Notes under the pieces: generated by a model
The model's database searches: none
Told to the model about the DNA's origin: nothing
The model's input: only the letters and a program-made list of their open reading frames with translations
In this document: positions 56,292 to 64,000 of the stretch, piece after piece
How positions within the stretch are numbered: the first letter of the stretch is position 1
Layout of the letters: the number at the start of each line of letters is the position of its first letter
Position numbers and translations under genes: made by a program
Source: Myxococcales bacterium
GTDB taxonomy: Bacteria > Myxococcota > Myxococcia > Myxococcales > Anaeromyxobacteraceae
Length of the DNA stretch: 64,000 bases
Assembly (NCBI GenBank): GCA_021806645.1
Contig: JAJZQX010000004.1
Location: 248,001 to 312,000 of the forward strand
Direction of reading: 5' to 3'

Positions 56292-56615
56292 GTGGCTACC
56301 CCTCCGCCGCTGTCCATCCGGCGCTTGATCGTCGGTGCCATGTTCGGCCTGCTCGGATGCACCGAGCCGGCGCCGCCCCCGTACACCCGGCTGGGCGGTG
56401 TGGCGCCCGCCATCGATGGCCTCCCCGTCGGGCCGACACTGCTGGTGCTCTGGTCCACCTGGTGTCCACCGCGCAGGGAGGAACTCGCGTCTCTTCGCGC
56501 GCCGGTTCGGGCGCTGCCCCAGGGCATCGCCACACCACTTCGCGAACCGCTGTATGCTGGTACGCGAAGAGACGGGAACGGCGCCATCGCCCTAGTCGGA
56601 AAGGAACGGCCATGA
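56292..56615 (+). pseudogene. Decayed TlpA-like copy
   Basis: The frame from GTG at 56292 mirrors the intact protein at 60063 (lipobox GLLGC, then TEPAPPPYTRLGG, LVLWSTWCPPRREELASLRA). The active-site CPPC has become CPPR, and similarity stops after about 85 residues, where the rest of the fold is missing. It runs up to the start of the lipoprotein gene at 56612. I regard it as a truncated duplicate. Confidence 0.75.
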
Positions 56616-60062: not shown

Positions 60063-60602
60063 GTGCCGCCGCGCCCTCCACGCCTGCGCTCCAGCGCGCT
60101 CACGATCGCGCTGCTGGCCTTCACCGGCTGCTCCGAGCCGGCGCCTCCGCCGTACACGCGCCTGGAGGGTCCGGCGCCGGCCGTCGAGCGCCTCCCGGCT
60201 GGTGCGGTGCTGGTCGCCTTCTGGGCCAGTTGGTGCCCACCGTGCCGCGCGGAGCTGCCGGCGCTTCGCGCGCTCGCGAGGCAGCCACCCCAAAGCGTCA
60301 CCGTCCTGACCCTCGGCGAGGACGAGCCGGAGCAGGCCGTCCGCGCGTTCTTCCAGGGGCCCCCTCCCCCCGAGCTCGGCTACCGCCGCGACCTCGACCG
60401 ACGGTACGCCACGGCCTTCGGCGTCGACGTGCTGCCGGCCGCCATCCTCGTGAGGGACGGGCGCCTCGTGGCGCGCTTCGACGGCCCCCAGGACTGGGCT
60501 TCGCCCGGGATGAGGCGCCTGCTCGCCAGGCTGGCAGGTGGAGGCGATCCACCCACCCGGCCAAGCCGGCCTGCCGTTGACGCCGTCCGCGGAGCACAGT
60601 AA
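60063..60602 (+). CDS. TlpA-like thiol-disulfide lipoprotein
   Basis: A 179-residue protein from GTG at 60063 with a lipobox (AFTGC, Cys23) and a thioredoxin fold. Its active site is Cys58-Pro-Pro-Cys61 (FWASWCPPCRAELPALRAL), and the cis-proline is in VDVLPAAILVRDGRLV. It is divergent from ccsBA and probably keeps apocytochrome heme-site cysteines reduced. A decayed copy lies at 56292. Confidence 0.88.
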   Translation: MPPRPPRLRSSALTIALLAFTGCSEPAPPPYTRLEGPAPAVERLPAGAVLVAFWASWCPPCRAELPALRALARQPPQSVTVLTLGEDEPEQAVRAFFQGPPPPELGYRRDLDRRYATAFGVDVLPAAILVRDGRLVARFDGPQDWASPGMRRLLARLAGGGDPPTRPSRPAVDAVRGAQ

Positions 60603-60614
60603 ACCCTCCCCCGG

Positions 60615-60908
60615 ATGCCGACCCTCGTCCGCACACTCCTCGTCGCCGCGGCGCTCTTCTCGAGCGGCGTGCTTCAGGTCGCCGCCGCCGCCGGCGAGGA
60701 TGCCTGCTGTGCCGAAGAGCGGGAAGCGCCCTGTGCGGACTGCCCGCTCGGGACCGCCTGCACGAGCTGCCCGTTCCGGGCCGCCGTCCGGGTTGACGCT
60801 CCCGAGCTCGCACCGGCTGCCTCGCCGTCCGCGACCGTCGTCACCGCTTCCGCGGAGCCGCCCCCGCGGACGTCGGTGACCGACATCTTCCGTCCGCCGA
60901 GAGCCTGA
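60615..60908 (+). CDS. Small Cys-rich secreted protein
   Basis: A 97-residue protein with signal peptide LLVAAALFSSGVLQVAAA and a compact cysteine cluster (ACCAEEREAPCADCPLGTACTSCPF; eight Cys in about 26 residues). A Pro/Ser tail follows. It begins 12 bases after the TlpA-like gene and precedes a metal-binding RND set, so periplasmic metal or thiol chemistry is likely. Family not recognised. Confidence 0.65.
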   Translation: MPTLVRTLLVAAALFSSGVLQVAAAAGEDACCAEEREAPCADCPLGTACTSCPFRAAVRVDAPELAPAASPSATVVTASAEPPPRTSVTDIFRPPRA

Positions 60909-61019: not shown

Positions 61020-61307
61020 ATGACGAACTACGTCCGCCTCACCGTCGCCGCCGCCGTCGCGCTCGCCTCCCTCCCCACCCTCGCCGCCGAGGGCCACCCG
61101 GCCGGAACGGCGGCCCCGACCACGCCTCCGCAGGCCACCAAGCAGGAGAAGTGCGAGCACGGCCTGCAGAAGAGCATCTGCGCCCGCTGCAACCCCAAGC
61201 TCGCGGCTGTCTACAAGGCCAAGGGCGACTGGTGCAGCGACCACCAGCGCCCGGAGTCGCAGTGCGTGCTCTGCCACCCGGAGCTCGCGAAGAAGGGGAT
61301 CAAGTGA
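61020..61307 (+). CDS. Periplasmic protein with two C-H-C-C metal-binding repeats
   Basis: A 95-residue secreted protein (signal peptide to TLAAEG). It holds two copies of a short unit: CEHGLQKSICARCNPKL and CSDHQRPESQCVLCHPEL, separated by YKAKGDW. The pattern C-x(1-2)-H-x6-C-x2-C-x-P-x-L could bind a soft metal tetrahedrally. The same unit occurs four times in the next protein. It overlaps the next gene by GTGA. Probably a metal chaperone for the RND system. Confidence 0.75.
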   Translation: MTNYVRLTVAAAVALASLPTLAAEGHPAGTAAPTTPPQATKQEKCEHGLQKSICARCNPKLAAVYKAKGDWCSDHQRPESQCVLCHPELAKKGIK

Positions 61308-62851
61308 CGGTTCCGCGACTCCTCGCGGCGGTCGCGCTGGCAGGGGCCTTCTCGGCCTGCTCGAAGGCGCCCCTCCCCGCCGAGCCGACCAAGGCCCCGG
61401 CCAAGGCGGCCGCCCCTGCGGCGGCGGTCCCCGTGGCCGTGAAGCTCTGCGAGCACGGCGTCCCGGCCGAGCTCTGCACGCAGTGCAACCCGGAGCTCGC
61501 CGCCGTCTTCAGGGAGCAGGGCGACTGGTGCGCCAAGCACGGCGTCCCGGAGTCGCAGTGCCTGAAGTGCAACCCCAAGCTCACCTTCACGGCCCAGGCC
61601 GCCCCCAAGGACTGGTGCAAGGAGCACTCGGTCGCCGAGTCGATGTGCACCAAGTGCAAGCCGCGGCTGGTCGCCAGGTTCGTCGAGGCGGGCGACTACT
61701 GCCGCGACCACGGGTACCCGGCCTCCGTCTGCCCCCTCTGCCACCCCGAGCTCGTCGAGGCCGCCGGAGAGAAGCCCCCGAGCTTCCCCGAGCCCGGCAC
61801 CAAGGTCCGGCTCGCGTCCCTCCAGACCGTGTCGCACGCCGGCATCCAGACGCAGGCCGTCGAGGGCGGGAGGATCGCGAAGACCCTGGAGGTGGTGGGG
61901 CAGCTCGCCTTCGACCAGAACCGGCTGGCGCAGCTCTCCTCGCGGGGCGACGCCCTGGTCTTGGAGGTCAAGGTCGACGTCGGCGACGACGTGAAGGAAG
62001 GCCAGGTGCTGGCCGTCCTGGCCTCGGCGGCGGTCGGCGCCGACCAGGCGCGGCTCGCCGGGTCGCAGGCGCGCCTCGAGGTGGCGCGCGCGGCCGTGGC
62101 ACGGGAGCGGCAGCTCGGCGAGGCGGGCCTCAGCCCCCGTAAGAGCCTCGAGGAGGCGCAGCGCGAGCTTGCGGCGGCGCAGGCCGAGAGCGATGCCGCC
62201 CGCTCCGCGCTGGGCGTGGCCGGCGCCGCCCCCGAGGCGGGCGGCGGGCGCTCGCTGCTGCGCGCGCCCTTCGCCGGGACGGTGGTGGCGCGAGACGCCG
62301 TGGCGGGCCGGTCCGTCGCGGCCGGGCAGATCCTGCTGCAGGTGGCGGACCTCGCGACGATGTGGGCCCTGCTCGAGGTGCCCGAGGCCGAGGCCGGGCT
62401 GGTCCGTCCGGGCCAGGCCGTGCGGATCACGTTCGAGGGGATGCGCGGCCCCTTCCGCGAGGCCAAGGTCACGCGGGTCTCCGCCTCGGTCGATCCGGCG
62501 TCCCGCACCGTCCGCGTCCGGGTGGAGCTGCCCAACCGCGACCGGACGCTGAAGGCGGGCGCGTTCCTGCGCGCCCAGGTCCAGGTGTCGGCCGACCACG
62601 ACGCGCTGCTCGTGCCCCGGGAGGCCGTCCAGCACGCCGAGGGCCGGACCCTCGTCTTCGTGAAGCGCGCCGACACCCTGTTCGAGCCCGTCGCGGTGGC
62701 GACGGGCGAGCGCGCGGGCGCCCTCGTCGAGGTGGTGACCGGCCTCGAGCCGGGCCTCGAGGTGGCCACCACCGGCGCCTTCCTCCTCAAGACCGAGATC
62801 ATGAAGGCCTCGATCGGCGCCGGCTGCTGCGACCTCGAGGAGAAGAAGTGA
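61304..62851 (+). CDS. RND adaptor with four N-terminal Cys/His metal repeats
   Basis: A 515-residue lipoprotein (lipobox FSAC, Cys19). Residues 49-150 hold four repeats: Cys49-Glu-His51...Cys58-x2-Cys61, Cys76-x2-His79...Cys86-x2-Cys89, Cys105-x2-His108...Cys115-x2-Cys118 and Cys133-x2-His136...Cys143-x2-Cys146. A CusB/CzcB-type adaptor follows, with the barrel-sandwich (SRGDALVLEVKVDVGDDVKEG), a hairpin (about 235-300) and beta-barrel (GAFLRAQVQVS). The tail has CCDLEEKK. The fused repeats probably capture metal for the pump. Confidence 0.88.
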   Translation: MTVPRLLAAVALAGAFSACSKAPLPAEPTKAPAKAAAPAAAVPVAVKLCEHGVPAELCTQCNPELAAVFREQGDWCAKHGVPESQCLKCNPKLTFTAQAAPKDWCKEHSVAESMCTKCKPRLVARFVEAGDYCRDHGYPASVCPLCHPELVEAAGEKPPSFPEPGTKVRLASLQTVSHAGIQTQAVEGGRIAKTLEVVGQLAFDQNRLAQLSSRGDALVLEVKVDVGDDVKEGQVLAVLASAAVGADQARLAGSQARLEVARAAVARERQLGEAGLSPRKSLEEAQRELAAAQAESDAARSALGVAGAAPEAGGGRSLLRAPFAGTVVARDAVAGRSVAAGQILLQVADLATMWALLEVPEAEAGLVRPGQAVRITFEGMRGPFREAKVTRVSASVDPASRTVRVRVELPNRDRTLKAGAFLRAQVQVSADHDALLVPREAVQHAEGRTLVFVKRADTLFEPVAVATGERAGALVEVVTGLEPGLEVATTGAFLLKTEIMKASIGAGCCDLEEKK

Positions 62852-62852
62852 C

Positions 62853-64000
62853 ATGCTGACCCAGACCATCGAGTGGTCGCTCCGGAACCGCTGGATCGTG
62901 CTCGGCGGCGCCGCCGCCGTCGTCCTGGCCGGCCTGCTCGCCTTTCGCGACCTGCCCATCGACGCCTTCCCGGACACGACCCCGACGCAGGTGCAGGTCA
63001 ACTCCGTCGCGCCCGCGTTGACCCCCGAGGAGGTGGAGCGGCAGCTCACCATCCCCATCGAGCAGGCGCTATCTGGTCTCCCCCGGGTCGAGGAGCTGCG
63101 CTCCATCTCGAAGTTCGGCCTGGCCCAGATCACCCTCCGCTTCGCCGACGGGACCGACCTGTGGTTCGCGCGCCAGCAGGTGGCCGAGCGGGTCGGGCGC
63201 GTCGAGCTGCCGCCGGGCCTGGAGCGCCCTTCGCTCGGGCCCGTCGCGACCGGGCTCGGCGAGGTCTTCCACTACCTCGTGAAGAGCAAGACCCGCAGCC
63301 TGGAGGAGGTCCGGACGCTGCACGACTGGGTCATCGCGCCCCAGCTCCGCAGCGTCCCGGGAGTCGCCGAGGTGAACACCTGGGGCGGGAAGGAGAAGCA
63401 GTGGCACGTGGTGGTCGACCCGCGCCGCCTGCAGCAGTACGACCTCTCGCTCGGCGACCTCTATCGCGCCCTGGAGGCCAACAACGCCAACGTGGGCGGC
63501 GGGGTGATGGAGCGCGCCGGAACCGCCAACCTGGTGCTCGGCGTGGGGGCCCTCGACGGCGGGCGGTCCATCGAGGAGGTGGTGGTGGCGGCGCGGCACG
63601 GCGTGCCCGTCCGAGTGCGCGACCTCGGGCGGGTGGAGGTGGGCCACGAAATCCGGCGCGGCGCCACCACGGCCGACGGCGAAGGCGAGGCGCTCCTGGG
63701 GCTCGGCTTCATGCTGGTCGGCGAGAACAGCCACGTGGTGACCGCCGCCCTGGCCCAGCGGCTCGAGCAGGTGAAAGCCCGCCTCCCGGGCGACGTGCAG
63801 GTCGAGGCGGTCTACGAGCGGACCGAGCTGGTCGACCTCGTCCTCCGGACCGTCAAGACCAACCTGCTGGAGGGCGCCCTGATGGTGGTCGCCATCCTGT
63901 TCCTGTTCCTCGGCAACGTCCGCGCCGGCCTCATCGTCGCGGCGGCCATCCCGCTCTCGATGCTCTTCGCCTTCGACGCCATGATCCGCTTCGGGATCGC
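62853..64000 (+). CDS. Third heavy-metal RND pump, 5' part
   Basis: It starts ATG at 62853, one base after the adaptor stop, and is open to the right edge (382 codons). The N-terminal segment MLTQTIEWSLRNRWIVLGG, LPIDAFPDTTPTQVQVNSVAP and GPVATGLGEVFHYLV identify a CzcA/CusA-family exporter. The first periplasmic loop and helices 2-3 (NLLEGALMVVAILFLFLGNVRAG) are complete. The helix-4 signature that would tell mono- from divalent metals lies beyond the window. PDTTPTQVQVN is more CusA-like than the two Czc pumps. Confidence 0.92.
   Translation, partial: MLTQTIEWSLRNRWIVLGGAAAVVLAGLLAFRDLPIDAFPDTTPTQVQVNSVAPALTPEEVERQLTIPIEQALSGLPRVEELRSISKFGLAQITLRFADGTDLWFARQQVAERVGRVELPPGLERPSLGPVATGLGEVFHYLVKSKTRSLEEVRTLHDWVIAPQLRSVPGVAEVNTWGGKEKQWHVVVDPRRLQQYDLSLGDLYRALEANNANVGGGVMERAGTANLVLGVGALDGGRSIEEVVVAARHGVPVRVRDLGRVEVGHEIRRGATTADGEGEALLGLGFMLVGENSHVVTAALAQRLEQVKARLPGDVQVEAVYERTELVDLVLRTVKTNLLEGALMVVAILFLFLGNVRAGLIVAAAIPLSMLFAFDAMIRFGI

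Follow-up and report, generated by a model that had tools for sequence, protein, structure and literature searches.

How divalent-metal RND pumps collect their substrates in the periplasm seems much less settled than it is for the copper pumps served by CusF and CusB. A locus close to the 3' end of the 64-kb stretch of myxobacterial DNA analysed here (the window) raises this question in a specific form. A short Cys/His repeat occurs both in a small secreted protein and at the N-terminus of the RND periplasmic adaptor encoded next to it, and a sequence-only reading of the locus had taken the two proteins for a chaperone-to-adaptor metal relay. Are the repeats real, do they belong to a metal pump, and does the relay account for their distribution?

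Three copies of a two-unit domain in two overlapping genes

The small protein consists of 95 residues (61020..61307, plus strand, ATG start at 61020 and stop at 61307) and is a candidate carrier or buffer. The adaptor, a lipoprotein-like protein of 515 residues (61304..62851, plus strand, GTG start at 61304 and stop at 62851), follows immediately. The gene calls come from a crude ORF caller, and both ORFs were confirmed. All six units of the form C-x(1-2)-H-x6-C-x2-C-x-P-x-L that the sequence-only reading had counted are present. Two of them lie in the small protein, S1 (CEHGLQKSICARCNPKL, 61152..61202) and S2 (CSDHQRPESQCVLCHPEL, 61233..61286), and four in the adaptor, A1 (61448..61498), A2 (61529..61582), A3 (61616..61669) and A4 (61700..61753), all on the plus strand. 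With three Cys and one His each, they provide the 24 candidate ligands claimed. The first unit of each protein has C-x1-H and the other four have C-x2-H, and the C-x2-C-x-P-x-L end is found in six of six. In the adaptor the four units are followed by the HlyD/CusB core and a C-terminal KTEIMKASIGAGCC.

Six-frame translation of the window gives 6 unit matches, compared with 0 in 30 dinucleotide-preserving shuffles. When residues are shuffled, a unit arises in 0 of 20000 trials for the small protein and in 4 of 20000 for adaptor residues 41-170. Conservation is, however, a stronger argument than these chance statistics that the units are real. The pairs S1-S2, A1-A2 and A3-A4 have one common spacing, and the linker between the two adaptor pairs is variable in length. 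The six repeats are therefore better described as three copies of a two-unit domain of about 46 residues. Seven orthologous small pairs share 63-83% identity with the small pair of the window, which is only 54% and 50% identical to the two adjoining adaptor pairs, and so the duplication that gave rise to the small and adaptor domains looks older than these species.

AlphaFold predicts the small protein with pLDDT values of 84-95 from residue 41 to its end. The adaptor model has a mean pLDDT of 88.7; most ten-residue blocks of its unit region score 84-95, but residues 91-110 fall to 70-78. A region predicted to be this compact, and with such confidence over most of its length, would also suit zinc knuckles with a purely structural task, giving the adaptor hexamer its shape or spacing. 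Because the domain also occurs alone and on thioredoxin, and because the number of units is not fixed, we regard that explanation as very improbable. The best reading of the conserved Cys and His residues is that they are metal ligands.

The domain is real and conserved, and none of Pfam, NCBIfam and the papers searched gives it a name. The six units lie outside every Pfam and NCBIfam model, and the small protein has no Pfam match above the cut-off, CusF-type models included. Matches to TSC21 (E 0.14) and Asr (E 0.014) fall far below the Pfam and NCBIfam cut-offs and were set aside as chance. The small protein gave 0 matches in the PDB either by Foldseek/VIA with its model or by profile, and no relative in the viral contigs searched with it. 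As far as open-licence PMC papers show, in a search that included motif peptide strings, the units are undescribed. Naming the domain would label proteins that now carry no domain label at all.

Conservation and spread of the domain

A scan of 84,980 species genomes yielded 209 stretches encoding relatives, of which the best 80, amounting to 79 loci, were read. The small unit protein, a unit adaptor and an RND permease occur together in 61 of these 79 loci (best of 209), a count that leans towards loci having the small protein since the loci were ranked by likeness to it. A further 7 of the 79 have a unit adaptor and permease without the small protein, 3 have the small protein and permease with an adaptor lacking any recognised unit, and 8 lack other parts, some being ended by contig ends. 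The repeats are thus concentrated in metal-efflux loci and are not a motif found mainly in unrelated proteins, which supports the original assignment. A clear adaptor orthologue was found in 8 of the 40 relatives searched, at 55-76% identity over the matched stretch. The layout of two plus four units is kept in seven of these eight loci. In the remaining one, L023, the adaptor carries two units, and the 4.4 kb fetched there contain no small unit gene. The start codon of the adaptor overlaps the stop of the small gene (GTGA) in the window, and the overlap recurs in 6 of the 7 relatives that have both genes, the exception being L019, where the adaptor begins with ATG just past that stop.

Alignments of motif-picked pairs (sets A3 and A4) cannot by themselves prove ligand conservation. 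A profile search of all ORFs of the fetched loci was run without a motif filter, although its profile was built from motif-picked pairs, and returned 368 distinct domain hits. Across them, Cys or His fills 97-100% of each of the eight ligand columns, whereas most other columns are variable. The ligand most often replaced is the last Cys of each unit, and the substitute is mostly His. The adaptor set (A5) comprised 49 of 59 adaptors and the window's own, and the neighbour-gene sets (A6, A7 and A8) comprised 81 of 116, 60 of 90 and 52 of 78 called genes. For the most part, unit proteins, core adaptors and uncertain ORFs were dropped from A6-A8; one ORF was added to them, and the boundaries of a few genes were adjusted.

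Members of the two-unit family are found in Myxococcota, in Planctomycetota and in the phylum to which an Ignavibacterium-labelled genome belongs. By profile, the domain occurs in at least 57 of 195 genomes in the phylum of the window, at least 64 of 392 in the phylum of a Planctomycetaceae-labelled genome, at least 33 of 132 in the Ignavibacterium phylum and at least 2 of 198 in the phylum of a Desulfuromonadales-labelled genome. These counts are lower bounds, because large genomes had only part of their candidates scored (no more than 18 per genome in the Planctomycetaceae-type phylum). Two loci from assemblies titled Comamonas (L047) and Bacteroidales (L094) look myxobacterial or planctomycete-like, and the assemblies are possibly mislabelled or mixed.

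In the Ignavibacterium phylum, each of the 15 loci read has a unit adaptor, and none shows a small unit gene within the approximately 3 kb fetched, so the small protein is not needed everywhere. Unit adaptors without a small protein, together with the thioredoxin fusions described below, speak against an obligatory relay. The number of recognised units per adaptor ORF reaches nine, two or four being commonest. Such a wide range, the 3+3 layout of small proteins from Phycisphaerae-type records and the missing small protein in the Ignavibacterium loci would all fit a metallothionein-like periplasmic sink that keeps free metal low around the pump, with the small protein and the adaptor array acting separately. 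However, tight pairing with a pump adaptor and the gene overlap suggest a joint step, and we consider such a sink rather unlikely. A chaperone-to-adaptor relay that is not obligatory stays plausible.

Several variants of the layout were also seen. Three adaptors of the planctomycete phylum (L209, L210 and L213) have nine recognised units, and the core part of these ORFs is also longer. Six-unit (3+3) small proteins are encoded beside the pump at L076, L090, L091, L092 and L104, in Phycisphaerae-type or Planctomycetota records. A C-terminal GAGC tail (about 62800-62848 in the window) ends 92 of 130 unit-bearing adaptor ORFs, compared with 8 of 19 unit-less adaptors, and its Cys is a possible further ligand.

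The class of the pump and comparison with HMBD

The adaptor has a barrel-sandwich/HlyD core (Pfam HlyD_D23, 9.7e-39) and matches the RND_mfp model over the cut-off (TIGR01730, NCBIfam), which identify it as an RND periplasmic adaptor. It had been called CusB-like; its core model matches both ZneB and CusB, but ZneB is the best solved relative and CzcB/ZneB-like is the better name. The CzcA/ZneA-type permease begins at 62853 on the plus strand and continues past the window end at 64000; its full length, 1043 residues, is seen in neighbouring DNA (L009). It matches ZneA at 7.1e-209 compared with 4e-182 for CusA, and TIGR00914 matches its window part with a score below the cut-off, as applied to a partial protein. 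The positions that we take to be the CusA Met triad are N, L and E in this permease (alignment read by hand). An outer-membrane-factor-like ORF 3' of the permease, outside the window, resembles such ORFs near other unit loci, and OEP-family genes lie near the unit loci of relatives.

According to PMC3637150, DFG-x3-DGA-x3-VEN marks HME1 and HME2 pumps for Zn, Co, Cd and Ni. TM4 of the window permease, DFGLVVDSSVIMVEN, retains DFG, D and VEN and has DSS where the published motif has DGA. Among the 63 permeases directly 3' of a unit adaptor in which the motif was found, 62 have DFG and one (L101) has AIG; 6 further loci gave none. By contrast, the permeases beside adaptors of the same bacterial family that carry HMBD (PF19335) have SIG, not DFG, in 15 of 15 found, a contrast drawn from that one family, in which no TM4 motif was obtained for 8 of 23 loci owing to a contig end, a short region or an HMBD outside the pattern (L004). 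DFG-type permeases beside units and non-DFG permeases beside HMBD lead to the prediction that the units serve Zn/Cd/Co-class ions and not Cu or Ag. For 5 of 5 P-type ATPases encoded in the vicinity of four planctomycete-type loci or on plasmid CP036351, ZntA/CadA models give a better fit than copper models. A CopA-type ATPase near the myxobacterial locus L097, the AIG permease of L101 and the DSS in the window's motif count against the divalent reading. Three other ORFs examined as ATPases, at L058, L064 (planctomycete) and L036, are not ATPases. Taken together, pump class and neighbouring genes point to a locus that handles a divalent metal of the Zn/Cd/Co class.

The sequence-only reading had held that the units differ from the YHS-like heavy-metal-binding domain, HMBD. 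This stands for the loop, which has 6 residues in the units and about 9 in HMBD, and for both Met ligands, which the units lack. It does not stand for the ligand order, because C-x2-H ... C-x2-C-x-[M/P]-x-L is common to both. Both are also short and occur in tandem copies at adaptor N-termini; three HMBD copies are found in an adaptor of the window's own genome (L008), and HMBD is present in 23 of 24 genomes of its family. The units have neither CPMHP nor CGM, and their adaptors stand beside a permease class other than that of HMBD adaptors. Neither the small protein nor the adaptor has an HMBD match at E<=1 in Pfam, whereas the same kind of scan detects HMBD in adaptor L062. The absence of a Pfam match and of HMBD from all 69 unit adaptors (0/69) rule out the window's adaptor as an HMBD carrier. 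Met at the two HMBD positions, before the His and two residues after the last Cys, was found in 0 of 306, 354, 311 and 336 cases in the units, which rules out a Met-type Cu/Ag site. Global profile alignment of units and HMBD brings all four ligands into line. By hhalign the probability is 58% locally over 12 columns and 1% globally, and the motifs are too short to judge descent.

The HMBD stretch of L008 matches PDB 8OVL, the N-terminal domain of LpCopA. According to PMC11970713, Ag is held there by M44, C59 and M61, and C42, H45, C56 and C59 align with the ligands of zinc domains. The units retain the zinc-type set of four and have no counterpart of M44 and M61. PMC11970713 also argues that this HMBD-type domain is regulatory and does not deliver metal. 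By extension, metal bound to the adaptor units could shift the conformation of the adaptor and turn the pump on. A sensor or gate of this kind is unlikely, as it leaves the separate small protein and the nine-unit arrays unexplained.

Thioredoxin fusions and a possible path of metal to the pump

A TlpA/thioredoxin-like lipoprotein with WCPPC (60063..60602, plus strand; Pfam Thioredoxin, 9.4e-10) is encoded two genes upstream of the small protein. TlpA homologues (E<1e-6) lie within the fetched flanks of 21 of the 79 loci (best of 209), upstream of the small gene as in the window at 10 loci and downstream at 10; at L105 the match is antisense to the adaptor. The window's genome (4.14 Mb) has nine places matching the TlpA-like protein, so one of them would seldom fall within 12 kb by chance. 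A partial second copy at 56301-56531 (51% identity over 76 residues) reads CPPR at the CxxC site and looks degenerate.

Between the TlpA-like gene and the small gene, a small secreted Cys-rich protein ending in DIFRPPRA is encoded (60615..60908, plus strand), with no Pfam or NCBIfam match. Its homologues lie upstream of unit genes at 11 of the 79 loci (best of 209; phmmer E<1e-3), and at more if the C-terminal xFxPPR is followed. The family end, [D/G/E]-[V/I/L]-[F/Y/L]-x-P-P-[R/K], is found upstream of unit genes in several phyla.

The domain is also fused to thioredoxin. At 14 of 17 places fetched, which were mostly chosen because the genome had a single or extra match, an intact lipoprotein-like protein of about 200 residues carries a two-unit domain and, after it, a thioredoxin domain, in which WCxxC is found in 14 of 14 (L144-L153, L155, L156, L158 and L159, excepting L154, from the window's own phylum). 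The other three places comprise one ended by a contig end, one degenerate copy and one ordinary pump type. A Pfam scan of 52 ORFs detected Thioredoxin in 5, of which the L144 fusion was the first. An adaptor and permease were seen in the fetched 7-12 kb only at L151 and at none of the other 13. The xFxPPR Cys-rich gene also precedes the fusions at L144, L145, L147, L152 and L155.

The invariable WCxxC of the fusions and the TlpA-like genes near the pump loci raise the alternative of a thiol-redox module, in which the cysteines form or exchange disulfides with TlpA-like proteins and metal is secondary. Three Cys with an invariant His in each unit, and replacement of the last Cys mostly by His, suit a metal site better than a disulfide, and the genomic linkage is to metal pumps; we consider this alternative quite improbable. 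In an oxidising compartment, a thioredoxin that keeps the cysteines reduced would make sense, and the fusions make this putative link concrete.

The preferred model, a metal-collecting system, can be put as follows. The units would be compact C3H1 metal knuckles paired into the two-unit domain, and those of the adaptor would make up an array that gathers metal ahead of a Czc/Zne-type RND pump. The small protein, secreted or lipid-anchored, would act as a carrier or buffer, binding divalent metal (Zn, Cd, Co class) in the periplasm with the same domain as the adaptor. It could hand the metal on to the adaptor array through exchange of ligands between like sites, a step suggested by the domain common to both proteins, by the gene overlap and by the precedent of CusF and CusB. 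Reduction of the cysteines may fall to the TlpA-like thioredoxin, which part of the family encodes nearby. What the data establish are the sequence, the conservation of the ligands, the linkage of the genes, the class of the permease and the spread of the family; metal binding itself, the preference for divalent ions, transfer from one protein to the other and reduction by the thioredoxin are deduced from these. We judge the chances of this model as a whole to be evenly balanced. A more far-reaching version, tentative and rather doubtful, makes the domain a multi-phylum trafficking module that couples thiol redox to export: a separate or fused thioredoxin would reduce the C3H knuckles, a soft divalent metal would be captured, and like-for-like exchange would carry it from carrier to adaptor array to Czc-type pump. 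A portable domain with clear candidate ligands is found on the putative carrier, the adaptor and a thioredoxin, which makes metal choice, with Met-containing HMBD beside non-DFG pumps and the Met-free unit beside DFG pumps, testable by swapping short pieces.

A metal-binding adaptor extension together with a carrier is a known kind of system, and the thioredoxin fusion is the unexpected twist. ZneB/CzcB and ZneA/CzcA are nearest to the window's adaptor core and permease, but the sequence match to ZneB spans residues 217-495 of the query, outside the unit array. In E. coli CusF and CusB, as PMC6235853 describes them, a small periplasmic metal protein and a metal site at the adaptor N-terminus likewise precede an RND pump, and metal transfer from CusF to CusB is a worked precedent. 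Those sites, however, are Met2His and Met3 sites for Cu(I) and Ag(I), whereas the putative donor and acceptor of the window share one and the same domain.
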